23,245 nt of DNA from a virus, in the IMG/VR virus record IMGVR_UViG_3300046522_000214, positions 1 through 23,245 of that record; one strand, 5' to 3'. The first letter of the stretch is position 1. Every line of letters begins with the position of its first letter. The position numbers and the translations under genes are program-made. Below, piece after piece: positions 4,358 through 21,357 of this stretch. The notes beneath the pieces are model-generated. The model did no database searches, was not told where the DNA came from, and saw nothing but the letters and a program-made list of their open reading frames with translations.

Positions 4358-4782
4358 CGGCGATTGCCGGTATCGTCTCCGCTGTCGGCACTATTGCGGC
4401 TGGCAAGGCTGAGCAGAACAACCAGAACTACGTTGCCAAGCAAGAGGACATGAAGGCCAAGGAAGAAATGGCCTCATCTCAGCGCGAGGCGCAACAGAAC
4501 CTCAATGAGGCGGATCTCGCCAATTCCAGGGCTCAGGCATTGGCCGCGTCGTCTGGTGGCGGCGCTGGCGCGGAAGCCCCGACGATTGTCAAGCTCATGA
4601 GCGACACGGCAGGGCAGGGCACGCTGAACGCCAACACCACGCTCTATGGCGGCATGGAACGCGCCTCCGGCTTGAGAGACAGCGCCAAGGGTCGCAGGGC
4701 AGCCGGCAAGGCATCGTTCCTTGGTTCCGTCCTCGGCGGCTTCGGGCAGGCCGCTGGCGGCTTCAGCAAAGCATTCGGCTAG
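4345..4782 (+). CDS. Internal virion protein (T7 gp14-like)
   Basis: This 145-residue protein overlaps the GNAT-like gene by 13 bases. GGAGG eight bases before the ATG supports the start. The N terminus is an Ala/Gly-rich hydrophobic helix (AALTAIAGIVSAVGTIAAG), followed by a long amphipathic helix rich in Gln, Glu and Ala (residues 22-70), an Ala/Ser/Gly-rich hinge, and a second Gly/Ala-rich hydrophobic end (SFLGSVLGGFGQAAGG). This matches small gp14-type ejection proteins, which leave the capsid first and form the outer-membrane part of the DNA translocation channel. Its stop codon sits in a CTAG palindrome that also supplies the stop codon of the minus-strand endonuclease gene. Confidence 0.75.
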   Translation: MAALTAIAGIVSAVGTIAAGKAEQNNQNYVAKQEDMKAKEEMASSQREAQQNLNEADLANSRAQALAASSGGGAGAEAPTIVKLMSDTAGQGTLNANTTLYGGMERASGLRDSAKGRRAAGKASFLGSVLGGFGQAAGGFSKAFG

Positions 4783-5381
4783 TCAAGCCACGCCCATGTC
4801 TTTCGCTCTTGGATTGATCTGACCGTACTAGGGGAGATGTTGAACTTATCAGCTAGGTATTTCAATGTCCTAGCTCCTTTTAGGGTCAGTATCTCTCGGG
4901 CTTGCACATCAGTTATTTTGCAGCTTCCTTGGCGGATACCACGATTTGATGTGCCATGCAGAAGTTTGTCTGCTTGGTTATCTTTCGAGGTTTTCCATTC
5001 CAGATGGTGGGGATTAACACAGCCGAGATGCCCTTTCCCGCAGTTGTGGGCGGCTTCGTGCGTGGGTGAGGGTGGAGCGCCGTGGACGATTTCGCAAACA
5101 TATCTGCTGGCGAGCGCCATCCTCCCGTCGACAGAAACATGCCCATAACCATTGGTGCTTTTGCAAAACGGCCAAAGAAGGCAGTCGGCGCCCTGATAAA
5201 GGATAGCTATTTCGTGAATGAACTGCATCGGCTCACCACGGGACGTTCGTCCGCTCAATGGGTTGCCATATCTATTGAAGCGTTTGTAATGCGCGCGGCA
5301 ATAGCCTTTGCATCCCTTGGCACTGTAGTGGGAGTTCTTGTTGCAGTTGTCGACAGAGCATGGAATAAAATCGGTAGCCAT
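4779..5381 (-). CDS. HNH homing endonuclease
   Basis: This is a 200-residue protein on the opposite strand to all its neighbours. The start is the ATG at 5381, set by GGAGG eight bases upstream; a TTG at 5396 would overlap that ribosome binding site. Domains in order: an N-terminal zinc-finger-like part (C8, C13, C24, C28, H31); an HNH_3-type nuclease core with H112, CVNPHHLEW (N123, H125, H126) and N135; and a C-terminal helix-turn-helix (residues 155-195, with LADKFNISPSTVRSIQ) likely to bind DNA. Such free-standing endonucleases cut a target in related genomes lacking the gene and spread by repair. Base composition differs from the neighbours: 52 of 120 bases are G or C at 4801-4920, against 42 of 60 at 4681-4740. 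This fits recent invasion between the gp14-like and gp15-like genes. Confidence 0.88.
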   Translation of the reverse strand: MATDFIPCSVDNCNKNSHYSAKGCKGYCRAHYKRFNRYGNPLSGRTSRGEPMQFIHEIAILYQGADCLLWPFCKSTNGYGHVSVDGRMALASRYVCEIVHGAPPSPTHEAAHNCGKGHLGCVNPHHLEWKTSKDNQADKLLHGTSNRGIRQGSCKITDVQAREILTLKGARTLKYLADKFNISPSTVRSIQERKTWAWLD

Positions 5382-5389
5382 TATTCGAA

Positions 5390-5394
5390 CCTCC
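5390..5394 (-). promoter_or_regulatory. Ribosome binding site of the HNH endonuclease
   Basis: GGAGG on the minus strand lies eight bases before the ATG at 5381. It decides between this ATG and the TTG at 5396, which overlaps the site itself. Confidence 0.75.
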
Positions 5395-5412
5395 AATGTT
5401 CGGTTTGGTCAG

Positions 5413-13748: not shown

Positions 13749-16040
13749 ATGACATCGATCTCGATTGACCGAACCGACGGGCTGTCTTCGGCCGCCGCCA
13801 TCAAAGGCCCGTGCAAGGCGGCCACGACCGTCAACATCACGCTCTATGGCGAGCAGACGATTGACGGTGTCGCCATCGTGACCGGCGATCGGGTGCTGGT
13901 GAAAAACCAGACGGCGGCCTATGAGAACGGCATCTATGTCTGCGACACCGGCCAATGGCGTCGGTCGAAGGACTTCAATCGGACGAACGATGTCGTCAAG
14001 GGCACGACTGTTTTTGTCACGGATGGCACCGTCAACGCCGGAACCAACTGGATCGTCACGTCAAGCAATCCGGTCGTCATCGGCACGAGTTCTATTTCGT
14101 TTGTGAGCATCGCGGCGCCGGCCGGCAGCGTCAGCACCGCCGCGATACAGGACGGCGCCGTCACGACTCCAAAGATCGCCGACGGGGCTGTGACCACGGT
14201 CAAGATCGCCGACGATACCGTGACGGCTGCGAAGATTGCTCCTGGCACAATCATTCAGACCGTCCTTACTCGGACTGCCCTGAAGGCGCTCGACACGACG
14301 AAGGCGACAACGGCCTATCTCAAGGAAGCCGGACGTGAAGGCGTCTTCAAATGGACGACCGGCAATTTCTCGACGCAGATCACCGCCGATACCGCCGAGG
14401 GCATCTATATCAAGGCGAATGCAATTGCCTCCACGGCGGGCGCATGGGTGCGCGCTTATGTCGGTTTGGCAGACATGCGTTGGTATGGCGCGATCGGAGA
14501 CGGAACGACCGACGACACGGCTGCAGTTGCAGCGGCATTCGCGGCTGGCGTTACCCTGTCCGGTGCTAAGAAGACTTACGCGGTGACCGGGAACGTGTCG
14601 CTACCAGCAAACATCAATCTTTCCGACGCAGCTTTCAAGCAGCTGACACCGAACAGCACGACCCGCAAGACACTCTTCGCCAACGGCGTCAGCAATGTAA
14701 CGCTGCTGCGTGTGACGGTGGACAGGAACGGCAACGGCCTGGGCGGCTCGCTTTCGACAGCGGCTGGCATATGGGTTACCGGCGGGTCGGGACACTACCT
14801 TGAAGACTGCGAAGTCTATGGTTCCGATATGGGCTCGGGTATCGTTATCAGCGGCGCGTCTAACTTCAATGTTGTGCGTCCCAAGATCCACGATATTCTC
14901 TACGTCTCTGCGTCTCTGCCGCCTGACGACCAGACGCAGGGCCTTTGGTTCAGCGCCTGCACCGACTTCTCTGTTCTGGAGCCAAGGATTTATCACATCG
15001 GCGGCATCGTCGGCGGTTCGTTCCGCCAGGCCTTTGGCCGGATGATGCCGTTCGGTCTTGGCTGCTCTTACTTCCGCGTCGTCGGTGGCGAGCTATACGA
15101 CGGTGACGTCGGTATCGACCTGACCGGCTCGGCGGGTAATTTCAACTTCGTGCTGATGGGCGTCACCGTTCGCGATGTCGAGACATGGGGCATCAAGCTT
15201 GCCAACTACAACCGTTTCGGCATGGTGATCGGCTGCAATGTCCACCGTGCGGGATCGGCAGGTTTTGTCGGTAGCGGCCCGACGGTTGACGTCGACCCGG
15301 ATAGCCCGGTTCCTTCCAGCCTCCCACAGCGGGTAAGCTTCGTTGGTTGCGGTGCCTGGAGCACAGGCTTTGGTAACACCGGGCGCGGAACGTCTCAGCC
15401 CGCTGGATTCCTGATCATCCCAGGCGCCGCGCCAAGCTATCAGGATTATCCGCGCGGCTACAGGTTCGTAAGCTGCACCGCGGTCGACAACCAGACAGTG
15501 AAAACCCAATATGACGGGTTCCGGAATGAGGTCTCCTATGGCGGCGCGCCGCTCAATGAAATGGTGGATTGCCGTTCCGGTGGCTATGCCGCTGGCGGGC
15601 ATCATTCCTTCGGGTTCCATTATCCGGCCTGCCGTGTTTACAACAGCGCCTCCGTCGCCATCCCGAACACCACAACAACGACGATCGGTTGGGATAGCGA
15701 AGACTATGACGGCGCTGCGATGCACAGCACGTCGGTTAACAATGATACGATCTTCGTACCGCACCCTGGCTGGTATCATGTCGACGCGGTTGTCATGGTG
15801 GCTGCGAGCGGTACGGGCACACGCACGATCCGCATTACCCAAGGCGGCGTCGTTCAGACACGGCTCAGGAGCCAGTCACCCGGCCTGTCATCCGGAGACC
15901 ACACGCTCACGATCAGTGGCGACGTCTATGTGAGCGATATAACGGGCGGCATTCGGGTGGATATAACGCAGACCTCAGGCGGCAGCTTGAACGTGCTGAC
16001 CAATTCGAGCCTGTCTGTCCGGCAGGTCTTGTTCAACTGA
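13749..16040 (+). CDS. Tailspike / tail fibre with beta-helix and C1q-like C-terminal domain
   Basis: This is a 763-residue receptor-binding protein. GAGGA a few bases before the ATG supports the start. Residues 20-125 form an N-terminal virion-attachment type region (VLVKNQTAAYENGIYVC, then a GTNWIVTSS segment). Residues 135-164 are three ten-residue repeats of the form DGAVTTxKIA, a common stalk element. From about 237, WYGAIGDGTTDDTAAV marks the start of a pectate-lyase-type right-handed beta-helix running to about 620, rich in Gly, Asn and short strands. Residues 630-763 look like a TNF/C1q-type jelly roll (SVAIPNTTTTTIGW, then VPHPGWYHVDAVVMV), which often trimerises or binds ligand. Such spikes bind and often cleave capsular or O-antigen polysaccharide. 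A catalytic pair cannot be assigned by eye. Confidence 0.88.
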   Translation: MTSISIDRTDGLSSAAAIKGPCKAATTVNITLYGEQTIDGVAIVTGDRVLVKNQTAAYENGIYVCDTGQWRRSKDFNRTNDVVKGTTVFVTDGTVNAGTNWIVTSSNPVVIGTSSISFVSIAAPAGSVSTAAIQDGAVTTPKIADGAVTTVKIADDTVTAAKIAPGTIIQTVLTRTALKALDTTKATTAYLKEAGREGVFKWTTGNFSTQITADTAEGIYIKANAIASTAGAWVRAYVGLADMRWYGAIGDGTTDDTAAVAAAFAAGVTLSGAKKTYAVTGNVSLPANINLSDAAFKQLTPNSTTRKTLFANGVSNVTLLRVTVDRNGNGLGGSLSTAAGIWVTGGSGHYLEDCEVYGSDMGSGIVISGASNFNVVRPKIHDILYVSASLPPDDQTQGLWFSACTDFSVLEPRIYHIGGIVGGSFRQAFGRMMPFGLGCSYFRVVGGELYDGDVGIDLTGSAGNFNFVLMGVTVRDVETWGIKLANYNRFGMVIGCNVHRAGSAGFVGSGPTVDVDPDSPVPSSLPQRVSFVGCGAWSTGFGNTGRGTSQPAGFLIIPGAAPSYQDYPRGYRFVSCTAVDNQTVKTQYDGFRNEVSYGGAPLNEMVDCRSGGYAAGGHHSFGFHYPACRVYNSASVAIPNTTTTTIGWDSEDYDGAAMHSTSVNNDTIFVPHPGWYHVDAVVMVAASGTGTRTIRITQGGVVQTRLRSQSPGLSSGDHTLTISGDVYVSDITGGIRVDITQTSGGSLNVLTNSSLSVRQVLFN
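14151..14240 (+). repeat. Three 30-bp in-frame repeats in the tailspike stalk
   Basis: Three consecutive ten-codon units encode DGAVTTPKIA, DGAVTTVKIA and DDTVTAAKIA. They are typical of triple-stranded fibre stalks and can change copy number by slippage or recombination. Confidence 0.8.
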
Positions 16041-16048
16041 GGTTTCGC

Positions 16049-16282
16049 CTACTTGGCGGCGGTGTAATACCAAAGCTCTTCAAGTTCTTCGGCCGTTGGC
16101 GATCGGTACTCCCACCGCCCCGGCAAGCGCCTACGCATGACGGCTATGCCATCGCGGTCAACGTGGTGATCCCACTGGTCGGAGAAGAAGAAGTCAATCA
16201 GGGCGTTCATGATCTTGTTCAGCATGGCGGTTTTGTAGCGCGCCGCGAGTAACTTTTCAATCCACAATCTGGAGCCTCCCAT
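16049..16282 (-). CDS. Small protein of unknown function, minus strand
   Basis: This protein has up to 77 residues. The first ATG (16282) shares a CATG palindrome with the start of the divergent holin-like gene. Internal ATGs at 16225 and 16210 would give 58 or 53 residues starting near LIDFFFSDQW; none has a convincing ribosome binding site, so the start is uncertain. The C-terminal half has an MRRRLPGRWEYRSPTAEEL stretch. An arginine-rich strand followed by WEYR and a helix recalls very small proteins common in Rhizobiales, of no known function. It stands alone on the minus strand between tailspike and lysis genes, so a moron-like origin is possible. Confidence 0.5.
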   Translation of the reverse strand: MGGSRLWIEKLLAARYKTAMLNKIMNALIDFFFSDQWDHHVDRDGIAVMRRRLPGRWEYRSPTAEELEELWYYTAAK

Positions 16283-16535
16283 GCTCGTCTATAACTGGCG
16301 CGAGGTGCTGAAGCGTGCCTGGTCCATTCGGTTCATGGTGCTCGCGCTCGTCTTCATCGTCCTTGAGCCGATCTACAATTTCGTCGCTGCGACCTGGGTA
16401 TCTCACAACATCTATATCCAACTCGGCATGTCGGTGGTGACCGGCCTCCTCACTGCAGCCGCCATCGTGGCGCGCATCGTCTTTCAACAGAAAATCTCAG
16501 GGGATTTGAATGGCAAACCGCCTACAGAAGGGTAG
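16281..16535 (+). CDS. Holin-like membrane protein
   Basis: This is an 84-residue protein with GGAG six bases before the ATG. It has two hydrophobic segments: FMVLALVFIVLEPIYNFVAA (about 18-37) and LGMSVVTGLLTAAAIVARIV (about 48-67), a basic N terminus with WREVLKRAW, and a polar C-terminal tail. Size, two-helix topology and position directly before, and overlapping, the endolysin gene by 26 bases all fit a holin or pinholin. The WKEVLKRAWS-like start is familiar from holin-like proteins of rhizobial phages. Together with the SAR-type endolysin this would set lysis timing by collapsing membrane potential. The functional call is inference. Confidence 0.7.
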   Translation: MLVYNWREVLKRAWSIRFMVLALVFIVLEPIYNFVAATWVSHNIYIQLGMSVVTGLLTAAAIVARIVFQQKISGDLNGKPPTEG

Positions 16536-16974
16536 TGCCGCGGCTGCAATGGCCGTGGCGCTAGTCGGAAGCTTCGAAGGGCTGCGCCAGAACGCCTATC
16601 CCGATCCGGCCACACAGGGTCAGCCGTGGACCATCTGCTACGGGTCTACGAACGGCGTGAAGCCTGGCGACCATAAGACCGTCGAACAATGCAAGGCGAT
16701 GCTGTCTCTGGAGCTCCAAACCTATGCCAAGGGCATCGAGGGGTGCACCCGCGTCCCGCTGCCTGATGCTCGGTTCGTCGCCCTCACGTCATTCGCCTAC
16801 AATGTGGGTGTCAAGGCTGCATGCGGCTCCACTGCCGTCAAGCTCATCAATCAAGGCAAGACCGCTGAAGGCTGCGAGGCTCTCCTGAAGTGGAACCGCG
16901 CCGCCGGTATCGTTTTCCCAGGTCTCACCCGTCGCCGGCAGAAGGAACGCCAGTTCTGCTTGGATGGCATCTGA
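16510..16974 (+). CDS. GH24 endolysin (T4/P21-type lysozyme), probably SAR-type
   Basis: This 154-residue muramidase cleaves the MurNAc-GlcNAc bond of peptidoglycan. The catalytic Glu-Asp-Thr arrangement is visible as E23 (SFEGLRQNAYPD), D32 and T41 (WTICYGST). The helical lobe follows, with FVALTSFAYNVG and the closing GLTRRRQKE segment characteristic of GH24. Residues 8-21 are a short, weakly hydrophobic Gly/Ala/Val stretch immediately before the catalytic Glu, as in signal-anchor-release endolysins such as that of phage P21. That would allow Sec export in an inactive, membrane-tethered form. The stretch is short for a membrane anchor, so the SAR call is less sure than the enzyme call. AGGGG lies upstream, and the stop overlaps the i-spanin start by ATGA. 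Confidence 0.9.
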   Translation: MANRLQKGSAAAAMAVALVGSFEGLRQNAYPDPATQGQPWTICYGSTNGVKPGDHKTVEQCKAMLSLELQTYAKGIEGCTRVPLPDARFVALTSFAYNVGVKAACGSTAVKLINQGKTAEGCEALLKWNRAAGIVFPGLTRRRQKERQFCLDGI

Positions 16975-17336
16975 TGTTCGGTATCCTCGATTACCTCAAG
17001 CTCGGGGCAGGCGTGGCCGCTGGGCTCATGATCTATCACCTCTACGCGGTATCGATCGGTTATCCCTCCGCAGCTCGAGAGGCACGCGCCGGCTATGTCC
17101 TCATTGCCGAAAAGACCGCAGCCGAAGCCAAGGCCGCCGAGATGGAGCGCCAGCGCAATGCAGCCGCCAAGGCGACCGAAGAGCACCGCAGGCGCCTCGA
17201 AGCCGCACAGGCATCGGAGCAGGCAGCGAAAGACACCCTCGAGAGTGAGATCCGATCGAATGAACTCATCCTATCGCAGAAGAACCGCGCTTGCATTGCT
17301 GACAGCGACGATCGGACTTTCATCCTGCACCACTGA
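16974..17336 (+). CDS. Inner-membrane spanin (Rz-like)
   Basis: This is a 120-residue protein. The start is the ATG at 16974, which overlaps the endolysin stop; the longer reading from 16890 lies within the endolysin gene. One N-terminal membrane segment (LKLGAGVAAGLMIYHLYAV, about 8-26) is followed by a long periplasmic coiled coil rich in Ala, Glu, Lys and Arg (residues 40-105), the standard i-spanin design. With the o-spanin it would join inner and outer membranes in the last step of lysis. The C-terminal 25 codons overlap the out-of-frame o-spanin gene, as in lambda Rz/Rz1. Confidence 0.85.
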   Translation: MFGILDYLKLGAGVAAGLMIYHLYAVSIGYPSAAREARAGYVLIAEKTAAEAKAAEMERQRNAAAKATEEHRRRLEAAQASEQAAKDTLESEIRSNELILSQKNRACIADSDDRTFILHH

Positions 17337-17568
17337 ACGGCTGAACAAGGCCGCGACGACGCAGGGCACGATCAAGGCTTCCGTCGTTCTCCCGGACTAT
17401 CCGCAGGACTGTCGGGCTCTTACGCCGCACGCAGCCATCGACGTTGGCGCAGAGCTTCGTTCAGTGCTCGTCCGCGAGCGTGGGCAGCTCGACAAGGCGA
17501 ACGCGCGAGTGGGCCGCTGTGGTCAGTTCTATGACGATGTGAAATCAAAATACGGGAAAACGCCATGA
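17260..17568 (+). CDS. Outer-membrane spanin lipoprotein (Rz1-like)
   Basis: This is a 102-residue protein. I choose the ATG at 17260 because it gives a textbook lipoprotein signal: basic RRR at 6-8, a hydrophobic ALALLTATIG core and the lipobox LSSC with C23. The longer frame from 17095 lies inside the i-spanin gene and would bury that signal. After the lipidated Cys the mature protein is small and polar, with KASVVLPDYPQDC and a C-terminal helix containing LRSVLVRERGQLDKANARV, plus a CGQFYDD end often seen in alphaproteobacterial o-spanins. The gene starts inside the i-spanin frame (77-base overlap) and its stop overlaps the next start (ATGA). Confidence 0.85.
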   Translation: MNSSYRRRTALALLTATIGLSSCTTERLNKAATTQGTIKASVVLPDYPQDCRALTPHAAIDVGAELRSVLVRERGQLDKANARVGRCGQFYDDVKSKYGKTP

Positions 17569-20096
17569 GCATGATGTTGGGGCTTTCCCTCGGGATCACG
17601 AACCAGTTGAGCATCGGCGGTGGAGGCGGTGGCCTGCCATCTTTGGCCGCGTATTCATACGAGACAGAGACGAACACGCTGGCGGCCGCTTTCTCAGTGG
17701 CTCCTACAACGAACCGCAAGCGGACGATCAATCGCGCGATCAAGCGCCTGAAGGCTGCCGGCATCTGGACCAAGGCCAAGATGATCATGGCCCTCGGCGC
17801 AGACGAGAATGCGTCTCTCCGCTGGTGGAACGACCCGACAAGAACCGGGGTGAAGATCAGCACGCCAGGCTTCAATGCGTCCTTCGGCTGGACGGCGACG
17901 GCGAACGGGCAGGCGATCAACACTAACCTGAATGCCAACGAACTCACGCAGAACGATCTTGGCGCATACGTCTATTGCACCTCGGAGCCAACCGGCAGCA
18001 GCAATAGCGACATGGGTGCTATCGACGCCTCGTCTCAGGGCATCAACATCTGCGCACGACGCGCGACCAATGACAATTACACTCTCCGGCTCGCAGGAAC
18101 TGCGGTCACGACGATTTCGGCTGATAACGATACGTTCGGCGGCGGATTGACTGGTGGCAGCCGTTCAGACAGCGCCAACATCACCGGATCGCATAACGGC
18201 GTGGCCAAGAATACGGTCGCCAATGCATCGGTCGCTCTTCCGAACCTCAACATCTATCTCCTCGCCCATAATGCCAATGGTTCGGTTTCCGGCTTTTCCC
18301 CACGTCGCCAGGCTTTTGCCTATATCGGCCGAGCCCTGACCAATGCTCAGGAAATAGAACTGACGGCCATTGTCGGCGAATACCTCGAGGCAGTGGGTTA
18401 TGGCGATGCCTACATCGAGGAAGTCGGCGTCGGCACGGCAAATATCACAGCCGATTTCATCGCCTACGGCTTTACCGCTCAGTCGGTCATGGCCTGCCTA
18501 CAGGCGGCCCGCAACGGCCTGACGGTCGCCCTTGTCGGTGGTTGGCGTGATCGCTTCAACTTCGGCGGCATGTCGTCTGGTGGCCTAGGCTTCGGCGACG
18601 TCGAGAACACTGCCGCATTCGGCGGCCTTGTCCGCTGGCTCACCAAGCGCATCCAGACGATCGGCAACGTTGCGACGGAGCAATATTATTTCGAGCCTCG
18701 CTGGTGCCAATGGGCTCTCCGCGAGCTTCTGACATCCACAAAGAATGGCGGTTACTCGATCCCGATCTACCAGACGAACGGCGTTCTCGCGGTCCAGAAG
18801 ACCGGCGCCAAGGTCACATCGTTCACCACCGTCGATGGAAGAACATTCACCATCAAGGGATGGATGGATGGCTCTTACGAAATGGACTTCGCGAAGGCTG
18901 CGGGCTGTTCCTACATCTATGGCCGCGAGGCAGCGACGGGATCGAGCGCGGAAGCCAACAACGGGGTTCGCTCTTCCTTCAACGAATATGCTGGCGTCGA
19001 TCCGTGGATTACTCCCGGCGTCACTGCGAGCGGCACAATTAATATGATCACCGCGGTCAGCTCAACCTTCACGCCAGGACTTAATACGCTGCCGGCGGCC
19101 GGAACTGCCGACCCGCATAACCAGGCATACAACTTCCGCTTCACCATGACGAACTCCCCGCGATGGAGGCGTCCGCTACCGAACACGCCGCCTGCCGGAT
19201 ATAACGTTGCGGATTACGAAATCCTCCTGCGCTTCATGGCCGCGAATCCGACGCTGGTCGGCTTTATGGATTACTTCAAGGCTGACGCCTTCGCCACGGT
19301 AGGCGGGGAGCAGAAATTCGACGTGAACAACAGGGCCGGCCCAGCCGCCCCATCGACGGACTATATCGGCAAGAATTGGGATTACGCACTGGCTTCTGTC
19401 TCTGTCCGTGAAGCCCTATGGAAAGCCCATTATAACTGGATCATGGGGATGCTGTATCTTCTGCAGTACGGCACCGATCCGCGCATCTCGGCGACACTCA
19501 AGACGAGCTGCCTGAACTGGGGGCTCTGTGCCGACCACTATTTCAGCCCGCATGAAAACGATACAGTTGGAATGACGCCGCAGCTTTACGTCCGCGAGGC
19601 TCTTCGTCTCGATGGCGTAGCGAAGATGCTTGGCGATGAACTGAAACGCGGCGATGGCGGCGTTCCGACCATCTCGACGAATACCGTTTCCTGCATCTCG
19701 TATTTCATGGACAGCCATGGCGTTAACTATGTCGCCTACGAGAAGACGGCAGGAACATGGATCGTCGCAGGCGAGGGTGGCCTATCTGATGACATCGGTG
19801 GTTCTGATGGCATGTTCCCGCTGCCGTTGGAGATCTGCACTCCCAAGGTCGCAGACTGCACCAATGGCTTCGTCTCTTTCGGGTTCTCGGCAAGCCACGT
19901 CGCTTTCGGTGCGATCCGCATGGAGTTCACGGCGATGCAGGCAGGCCAGAGCCTCGGGCAGGTAGCCGCGGAAGCGATCAACAACAACCGGACCTTCCAG
20001 GATGCGGCGAACTACACACCGGCCCGCACGGCGCTTCTCGCCAATGCCTTTGCGCTGACGAATGAACTGGTTCCGGTGCTGCCGCAGACGACCTAA
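17565..20096 (+). CDS. Lectin-like domain fused to FAD-dependent oxidoreductase-like domain; probable virion protein
   Basis: This 843-residue protein starts at an ATGA overlap with the o-spanin. Residues about 40-285 match a concanavalin/LamG-type module frequent in rhizobial phage fibre proteins (INRAIKRLKAAGIWTK, then GAYVYCTSEPTGSSNSDMG and IYLLAHNANGSVSGF). From about 290 to the end the sequence follows the FAD_oxidored family (PF12831) in order: ADFIAYGFTAQSVMACLQAA, NFGGMSSGGLGFGDVEN, YYFEPRWCQWAL, TVDGRTFTIKGWMDGSYEMD, AYNFRFTMTNSP, STDYIGKNWDY, LCADHYFSPHENDTVGM, PQLYVREALRLDG, and near the end SASHVAFGAIRMEF. The first FAD motif is degenerate: the usual GGxPAG appears as YGFTAQ (301-306), so redox activity is doubtful. 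There is no signal peptide. A receptor-binding or enzymatic virion protein is inference from the lectin module and late position. Confidence 0.8.
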   Translation: MSMMLGLSLGITNQLSIGGGGGGLPSLAAYSYETETNTLAAAFSVAPTTNRKRTINRAIKRLKAAGIWTKAKMIMALGADENASLRWWNDPTRTGVKISTPGFNASFGWTATANGQAINTNLNANELTQNDLGAYVYCTSEPTGSSNSDMGAIDASSQGINICARRATNDNYTLRLAGTAVTTISADNDTFGGGLTGGSRSDSANITGSHNGVAKNTVANASVALPNLNIYLLAHNANGSVSGFSPRRQAFAYIGRALTNAQEIELTAIVGEYLEAVGYGDAYIEEVGVGTANITADFIAYGFTAQSVMACLQAARNGLTVALVGGWRDRFNFGGMSSGGLGFGDVENTAAFGGLVRWLTKRIQTIGNVATEQYYFEPRWCQWALRELLTSTKNGGYSIPIYQTNGVLAVQKTGAKVTSFTTVDGRTFTIKGWMDGSYEMDFAKAAGCSYIYGREAATGSSAEANNGVRSSFNEYAGVDPWITPGVTASGTINMITAVSSTFTPGLNTLPAAGTADPHNQAYNFRFTMTNSPRWRRPLPNTPPAGYNVADYEILLRFMAANPTLVGFMDYFKADAFATVGGEQKFDVNNRAGPAAPSTDYIGKNWDYALASVSVREALWKAHYNWIMGMLYLLQYGTDPRISATLKTSCLNWGLCADHYFSPHENDTVGMTPQLYVREALRLDGVAKMLGDELKRGDGGVPTISTNTVSCISYFMDSHGVNYVAYEKTAGTWIVAGEGGLSDDIGGSDGMFPLPLEICTPKVADCTNGFVSFGFSASHVAFGAIRMEFTAMQAGQSLGQVAAEAINNNRTFQDAANYTPARTALLANAFALTNELVPVLPQTT

Positions 20097-20107
20097 AGCA
20101 AGCGGCC

Positions 20108-20133
20108 CGACGTTCTGTTGAAGCAGAGCGTCG
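20108..20133. other. Stem-loop after the oxidoreductase-like gene
   Basis: CGACGTTCTG (20108-20117) pairs with CAGAGCGTCG (20124-20133), ten pairs with one G-U, around a TTGAAG loop. It begins 11 bases after the stop codon. No T run follows, so it is either a non-canonical terminator or an mRNA 3'-end stabiliser; this is inference. Confidence 0.45.
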
Positions 20134-20216
20134 AGCCTGACCACCTCGATCACGATCATCGAGAATGGCTGATCTATTCTGCCACGCTCACCTTCTGAAA
20201 TCCTTAATGGCATGGC

Positions 20217-20636
20217 ATGGGCGGCTTAATGACAAGCAACGACGATATCCTCCTGATGCTCGGACGCGTCGAGGAAGGCGTAAAGCGAATCCGGGAAGAC
20301 TTTCAGGAGGAGAAGCAGAGTGCCCACGAAAGCCGGTCGGTAATCCATCGACGGCTCGATGAGCAGAGACAGCAGATCCACCTACTGGATAAGGTGGTGG
20401 AGATCAGCAGCGGCGTAGACGCCACTCTACGGGAAGAAATCAAAAGCCTCAAGGAGACCGTCGAGAAGAACCATGACGCGGTCGCCCCCACTCTCGAGGA
20501 GTGGAAAAAGATGAAGACGCTGGGCTACGGCATCTCAGGGCTGATCGCCTTCGCCGGGTTGACGATCGGCGCCGTGGTCACGTGGGCCAGCGATGGGGCT
20601 GTCTCGGCACTCAGGCATTGGCTCAAGATAAATTAG
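20217..20636 (+). CDS. DUF1515-like coiled-coil membrane protein
   Basis: This protein has up to 139 residues; a second ATG at 20229 (MTSNDDILLMLG) gives 135 and is about as plausible, as neither has a strong ribosome binding site. Residues 15-95 are a charged coiled coil with ESRSVIHRRLDEQRQQI, the pattern I recall for DUF1515, a family described from rhizobia. Near the C terminus is one hydrophobic segment (GYGISGLIAFAGLTIGAVVTW, about 104-124), followed by a short basic tail. Coiled coil plus one C-terminal membrane helix also resembles XhlA-type accessory lysis proteins. Its function is unknown; its location after the lysis and fibre genes allows an accessory lysis role as inference. Confidence 0.65.
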   Translation: MGGLMTSNDDILLMLGRVEEGVKRIREDFQEEKQSAHESRSVIHRRLDEQRQQIHLLDKVVEISSGVDATLREEIKSLKETVEKNHDAVAPTLEEWKKMKTLGYGISGLIAFAGLTIGAVVTWASDGAVSALRHWLKIN

Positions 20637-20788
20637 GGCTTTGGATGCGGTTAAACATCCCCCACCTTTAGAACTGATATTTCCTTACCATTCCAGACAA
20701 ATGCCGGCGTGCTTTCGGAGACGATGATTTTCATCCCGCAGAACTCGGCAGACCACGGCGGTACGCTCGATCATGCTCTCCATCTCCA

Positions 20789-21223
20789 TTACCTTCCATT
20801 GTCCTTGATGGCGCCCTTGATCGACGAGATGCATTCACGAAGAGCATTGATCTGGCCAATGTCGGTATAGAGCGGAAGTCGGGCTTCTATGATCGCTACC
20901 GCAGTGTCCAATCCATAGGGTGTGGCGTCATAAACCGCGAAGCCGAGCGGGTCGTCTTTTTCGGTGATCCACATTGCGCCCAAGGGCACGTTCTGGACCG
21001 GCGCGTTCTCTCCATGACGCAACCACGCAATAGGCTCTAAACCGGATGACGGTTTCGCCCGGTGGTTCCAGGCCGCTATAGCCTCATGTCGCGCCGCCAC
21101 GTCGCCGCCCGGGCACGCGTGGCAGTTCGAACACATGACCCAATGACGAGGGTTGAATTCGTTGTCACCGCATGCGATGGCCTTTCCACCGCAGAACGGG
21201 CAAGGCTTCAGGTCGTCGGTCAT
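20789..21223 (-). CDS. Lar-like restriction alleviation protein with C-terminal extension
   Basis: This is a 144-residue protein. I choose the ATG at 21223, with GGAGAG four bases upstream; the ATG at 21235 contains that ribosome binding site. The N-terminal 55 residues match Lar-type proteins: LKPCPFCGG (C8, C11), MCSNC (C31, C34) forming a four-Cys zinc ribbon, then EAIAAWNHRA. Lar of the Rac prophage moderates type I restriction; many phage proteins with this motif have no tested function. Residues 60-144 are an extra domain I do not recognise (PIAWLRHGE, DDPLGFAVYD, and a helix ending IKGAIKDNGR). It is convergent with the DUF1515-like gene and lies beside attP, a usual place for counter-defence genes. 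Confidence 0.7.
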   Translation of the reverse strand: MTDDLKPCPFCGGKAIACGDNEFNPRHWVMCSNCHACPGGDVAARHEAIAAWNHRAKPSSGLEPIAWLRHGENAPVQNVPLGAMWITEKDDPLGFAVYDATPYGLDTAVAIIEARLPLYTDIGQINALRECISSIKGAIKDNGR

Positions 21224-21357
21224 TTCTCTCTCCATTATTCAGTACCACAGGCCGTCTCACTCTCGAATGTCATCATAGCTTTTGACGCGCGGCCGACGCC
21301 AAGCCCAAGTTCAATGAACCTAGAGGGAAATACGCAAAACGCCACCCGAAGGCAGCG

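Follow-up and report, generated by a model that had tools for sequence, protein, structure and literature searches.

A late phage gene that joins a lectin-like module to an FAD_oxidored domain in an exchangeable slot behind the spanins

The window analysed here, a stretch of 23,245 nucleotides, represents a 23-kb piece of a temperate podovirus-like phage of the Rhizobium type. It contains an intact ORF (17565-20096, + strand) that encodes a protein of 843 aa, in which ORF analysis and Pfam and PHROG matches distinguish a short N-terminal tag, a lectin-like module and a full-length FAD_oxidored (PF12831) domain, in that order. The gene is coupled to the late operon, its lectin and FAD parts have a single fusion history, and the slot that it occupies is exchanged among related phages. 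Judging from these sequence comparisons, we lean slightly towards the reading that the product is a late-expressed modular phage protein carrying a working flavoenzyme to the bacterial surface.

Architecture of the fusion protein and its place in the late genes

The tag (MSMMLGLSLGITNQLSIGGGGGG, residues 1-23; 17565-17633, + strand) is shared with GDSL/SGNH and BNR_4 proteins that occupy this slot in related phages. The first 25 residues of the protein include no charged residue, and a search for a signal peptide or transmembrane segment found no hydrophobic stretch of sufficient length. The second part, which starts at 17634 and ends at 18416 (+ strand; residues 24-284), is a jelly-roll (ConA/LamG-like), lectin-like module recognized by AlphaFold, Foldseek and PHROG. 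The FAD_oxidored domain (residues 297-813; 18453-20003, + strand) was identified by alignment with cellular enzymes and by its match to positions 1-406 of the 416 in the PF12831 profile (E=7e-39, 134.7 bits; the curated cut-off is 27 bits). A sequence-only reading of this DNA had proposed these two domains; the profile match and the jelly-roll model show both to be real, and the motifs that it quoted (YGFTAQ, FGGMSSGGLG and AFGAIRMEF) are all present.

PF12831 and the jelly roll were the only domains detected, and no hydrolase, lyase or deacetylase fold was found by Pfam or in the AlphaFold model of the module. A PHROGs scan with the full-length 843-aa protein gave no matches, but the separated lectin module did match. 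In a PDB sequence search, the sole match of the full protein was a sulfate-binding protein, which was chance-like and was set aside; a profile of the C-terminal domain gave weak PDB matches only, to flavin-dependent halogenase. The full-length AlphaFold model, built with six sequences, was poor (mean pLDDT 43), and its Foldseek matches, mainly FAD/NAD Rossmann flavoproteins and jelly rolls, are used as support only.

The region from about residue 24 to 284 has no Pfam family but recurs as a module in many phages. Against PHROGs it matched phrog_18498 (E=9e-13) as well as phrog_26223 and phrog_17104, and tblastn matched it to phages Murp, Mwe-JY13, phiM12 and others. The AlphaFold model of the module, based on 32 aligned modules, reached a mean pLDDT of 92.3 and a pTM of 0.90, and together with Foldseek it indicates a ConA/LamG-like jelly-roll beta sandwich. 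The PDB structures retrieved by Foldseek included domain 4 of the arabinanase AbnA (5hon), trans-sialidase lectin domains, the tailspike of cyanopodophage Pan3 (9vyh) and, by fold only, the receptor-binding jelly rolls of clostridial neurotoxins; many viral LamG/ConA proteins were matched in BFVD. AbnA domain 4 and the Pan3 tailspike share the fold with E-values in the 1e-5 range, at a low identity of 10-17%. In other phage sequences the module is joined to a Mu-type GP46 baseplate protein (L037, E=7.5e-26), to a head-completion protein (L064, E=8e-14) and to a minor-tail-type protein (Gordonia phage Murp), and in phiM12 a GDSL-type esterase region and an Ig/Hoc-like stretch precede it. In the protein of one locus (L051:3560-5800), three tandem lectin modules come after an MLGLSL-type tag.

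Upstream in the window are genes for tail tubular-type proteins, internal virion proteins, a 961-aa virion protein and a separate beta-helix tail fibre or spike (13749-16040, + strand; weak End_N_terminal match). These are followed, on the + strand, by a holin-like protein (DUF7940; 16281-16535, phrog_1356 holin), a lysozyme-type endolysin (16510-16974, profile matches), a Rz-like i-spanin (16974-17336, its start placed by homology to RHph_Y25) and a Rz1-like o-spanin lipoprotein (17260-17568). The o-spanin stop codon and the start of the fusion gene overlap as ATGA, and the fusion gene is therefore coupled to the lysis operon. Beyond it lie a DUF1515-like gene recognized by homology (20217-20636, + strand) and, identified by profile matches on the opposite strand, genes for a Lar-like restriction alleviation protein (20789-21235) and for the tyrosine integrase of a temperate phage (21499-22665). 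The position previously assigned to the gene, between the spanins and accessory genes, is thus borne out.

Conservation of the FAD_oxidored domain

In the sequence-only reading the domain was called degenerate, YGFTAQ standing where GGxPAG was expected in the dinucleotide-binding loop. This description is mostly wrong. The loop of the cellular relatives compared likewise begins Y-G-x-T (YGGTSAG, YGCTSAG, YGGTPGG and YGMTSGA), so that in this subfamily YG is normal and GGxPAG is not a general feature; because the loop is common but not strict in the family, we classed the fusion protein in PF12831 by its profile score. In its YGFTAQS, compared with YGGTSAG, the third glycine is replaced by Ser. 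That glycine is missing in the window protein's own subclade, is kept in the related phage proteins of RHph_N3_19 (YGATSQG) and locus L018 (YGLTSIG), and is Ala in a cellular enzyme of Rhizobium sp. AB2/73. The acid that follows the second strand (the beta-2 acid) is Gly in all phage members and is also missing from the AB2/73 enzyme and from a Sphingobium and one Spirosoma protein. Judged from the alignment, these two are the only genuine alterations, and both positions vary in cellular relatives too. The fusion protein may bind FAD weakly or not at all, because the third glycine is lost in its subclade and the beta-2 acid in all phage members.

Five cellular relatives share 89 invariant columns, of which the window protein keeps 65 and changes 24; all nine phage proteins of this type (see below) keep 41. 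Among these 41 are 28 polar residues, retained in 9 of 9 phage proteins. They include D435, Y438, E439, D441, R454, E455, R525, D586, N588, R615, R677, D716, H718, E737, H778, R785, E787 and Q795, and they fall in the D-Y-E-x-D, GRE, YVR.xxR, D.H, H..G..RME and Q motifs. The GGM.SGGLG..D motif and the C-terminal H.A.G..RME..M..GQ motif are both present in the fusion protein. This pattern of residue conservation speaks for a working, if specialised, flavoenzyme.

An exchangeable slot and the history of the fusion

When the window was compared with phages by megablast, homologous DNA around the slot was found solely in the flanks, at 16266-17366 and at 20090-20639 (+ strand), the latter being common to phages that carry other payloads. 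Phages with these flanks share the order lysis genes, X, DUF1515-like gene, integrase. RHph_Y25 and RHph_N2 have a two-domain GDSL/SGNH esterase as X (and the annotation of RHEph18 agrees), RHph_I1_23 and RHph_Y1_10 encode an SGNH protein of 452 aa, and in RHph_N3_2 and RHph_I3_18 a BNR_4 propeller stands in front of that same lectin module; homology starts again at the stop codon of X. On this genome comparison, the slot is swappable, with payloads exchanged behind the spanins in related phages. Because the other occupants are sugar-active proteins as well, it has the appearance of a swappable surface-altering tool. Genes for SASA-type acetylesterases also occur near lysis cassettes of related phages (L022:6143-6991 and L029:6389-7327).

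An HNH endonuclease-like gene (4779-5396, - strand) is inserted among the virion genes of the window; its identity to HNH genes of related phages is 51-55%. Two of these relatives, in L019 and in RHph_N3_2, immediately precede the slot gene, and homing could therefore help payload exchange.

Several, although not all, slot payloads of related phages carry the same tag, which occupies the first 15-20 residues (window, MSMMLGLSLGITNQLSIGGGG; RHph_Y25, MSLMLGLSLSLNNQLGGGG; RHph_I1_23, MSLMLGLSLSINNQLGGGG; RHph_N3_2, MLLGLSLALTNPRLNSGGG). The peptide is kept while the codons differ, mostly synonymously within LGLSL (TTG GGG CTT TCC CTC in the window, CTT GGA TTG TCC CTT in RHph_Y25). Conversely, the payloads of RHph_N3_2 and RHph_I3_18 are nearly identical and their N-termini are different, from which it appears that the N-terminus is an exchangeable plug in its own right. 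The N-terminus of the RHph_I3_18 protein resembles that of the lectin protein of Microcystis phage Mwe-JY13, the gene of which is directly behind portal. A natural tag swap is seen in two BNR_4-lectin proteins (L028:3814-6003 and L026:3913-6003) that are nearly the same but have different N-terminal tails. Short Y.G..AI-type repeats open both the RHph_N3_19 fusion (at L007:3935-4050) and a stand-alone lectin protein (at L058:3893-4000) and may represent a further, third type of plug. A search for the tag itself in phages and IMG/VR found no copies, the query being short and the patterns possibly too strict.

The sequence-only reading had proposed looking for the same fusion in other phages, and eight further proteins share the lectin/FAD order. 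Three are in GenBank (RHph_I72, 75% identity; RHph_Y55, 74%; RHph_N3_19, EVB99_110, 39%) and five are in IMG/VR loci (L002, 82%; L004, 81%; L019, 46%; L003, 40%; L018, 33%), the L018 protein having an extra Ig-like domain in front. The RHph_I72 (EVC26_036, QIG76482.1) and RHph_Y55 (EVB71_023, QIG68875.1) proteins have the same architecture, their 74-75% identity extending over 97% of the sequence, but N-terminal tails other than that of the window protein; they are deposited as 'FAD dependent oxidoreductase', and the deposited records describe no role. Judged by ORF order and sequence, the IMG/VR genes are near or behind lysis-type genes. That neighborhood is not a fixed rule, however, since the gene lies between the portal and major head genes in RHph_I72 and RHph_Y55 and between terminase and portal in RHph_N3_19.

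In the FAD-domain tree the nine phage proteins group as one clade (support 97/98) adjoining the AB2/73 enzyme, and the lectin tree likewise unites their modules in one clade (support 99/97). Because the two trees are congruent, the simplest account of these sequences is one fusion event followed by transfer as a unit among unrelated phages. The dN/dS values (FAD domain, 0.05-0.11; lectin module, 0.03-0.13; rough figures with dS near saturation in several pairs) show, at the level of codon substitution, that the fusion is under purifying selection. With the patterns used, neither a cellular nor a prophage copy turned up among 84,980 species genomes. An 'FAD-dependent oxidoreductase' is noted in T4-like alphaproteobacterial phages (PMC10783043); tblastn with the FAD domain of the fusion retrieved no T4-like phage. 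A human faecal scaffold (MT836609), with 181 FAD-domain residues at 24% identity, was left out of the comparison.

The AB2/73 enzyme (WP_209160096.1) is the nearest cellular relative found, with 37% identity over 93% of the FAD domain. It shares with the phage domains a GGWR[DE] loop (GGWRE in AB2/73) and the polar core, but has a Tat-like leader and no lectin, whereas the phage proteins have the tag and the lectin module instead. All of the cellular relatives used start with signal-like sequences, consistent with work outside the cytoplasm, and the RRKFI that the alignment reveals in the AB2/73 leader is what one would expect of a cofactor enzyme exported in the folded state. The AB2/73 gene (L011:9914-11662, plasmid pAtAB2-73d) is flanked by virB1 and a gene for a virA-like sensor kinase.

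Proposed mode of action and comparison with known virion enzymes

The mode of action proposed here is inferred as regards attachment to the virion, binding of a glycan, occupancy by FAD, catalysis, and the substrate and electron acceptor. Because it has no export signal, the fusion protein is modelled as folding and taking up FAD in the cytoplasm. The short tag and a glycine linker would then dock it on the virion, or it would remain in the lysate; binding of a rhizobial host-surface glycan would fall to the jelly-roll module; and oxidation by the FAD_oxidored domain would affect a group of this glycan or of a linked envelope component, which might help penetration, receptor alteration or particle release. 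The substrate is a guess by analogy with the neighboring payload classes and the lectin. The earlier suggestion of a virion-type surface protein, here with a role related to glycans, gains indirect support from the slot, the shared tag, the fusions of the lectin module to virion proteins and the absence of a signal or transmembrane segment.

An alternative is that the FAD domain is a dead scaffold, without FAD binding or catalysis, and that the fusion is simply a large receptor- or surface-binding protein. The Ser at the third loop glycine, the Gly at the beta-2 acid and the 24 changed columns of the window protein would fit such a protein, as would its PF12831 score (135 bits, compared with 197-203 for RHph_N3_19 and L018). 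We nevertheless consider it unlikely. The pocket-type polar residues are kept in every phage protein and cellular-invariant residues widely so, the AB2/73 enzyme likewise has no beta-2 acid and carries Ala in place of the third glycine, and the higher-scoring RHph_N3_19 and L018 proteins retain that glycine, so that the earlier notion of a mere scaffold is not upheld.

If the domain is active, it might still act elsewhere than on the bacterial surface. The product of a moron or auxiliary gene would serve inside the infected cell or lysogen (in metabolism, lysogenic conversion or superinfection exclusion) and not in the virion. The last late gene before Lar and integrase is a usual place for accessory genes, exchange of payloads is typical of accessory loci, and the RHph_I72 and RHph_Y55 annotations would suit such a role. 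This explanation seems improbable to us, given that the domain is fused to a module found on virion proteins, that the gene sits inside the block of head genes in RHph_I72, RHph_Y55 and RHph_N3_19, that the protein has no export signal with which to act on the surface of a lysogen, and that the cellular relatives look exported. Another scenario is that a free enzyme is released at lysis and acts on the matrix around the burst cell, helping progeny to spread without stable attachment to the particle. Translational coupling to the o-spanin and lysis operon would agree with this, and the lectin would hold the protein on the matrix. However, the conserved slot-specific tag, which is swapped for other short N-termini in RHph_I3_18, RHph_N3_19 and RHph_I72, suggests an N-terminal binding role, and some relatives are located away from lysis genes; we regard a free enzyme as very unlikely.

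If the preferred reading of a flavoenzyme carried to the surface is correct, a conserved, lectin-steered redox enzyme would add new chemistry to phage entry or release, and the fusion would offer an entry point to PF12831, a large family on which scant literature was found under the Pfam name. The slot also offers a natural comparison among near-relatives that have the same flanks and tag and carry esterase, propeller or oxidoreductase payloads. More generally, some tailed phages may display on their particles a lectin-steered, active flavin oxidoreductase that alters host-surface glycans by redox chemistry, the enzyme being one cartridge for a slot in which a short N-terminal tag precedes an exchangeable esterase, propeller or oxidoreductase; we put this forward tentatively, as possible rather than probable.

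The FAD annotation of the RHph_I72 and RHph_Y55 proteins in GenBank was already known; a literature search found neither the lectin-FAD fusion nor a role for it described, and what is new is the proposed modular, surface-acting phage protein with a redox payload. Such a payload would be novel because the virion-associated carbohydrate enzymes listed in a review are hydrolases, lyases and deacetylases, the word oxidoreductase being absent from it (PMC5380687). Like those polysaccharide enzymes, which include tailspike depolymerases and deacetylases, the fusion would present a glycan-related, modular and exchangeable payload behind a conserved N-terminus; unlike them, it carries an oxidoreductase domain.
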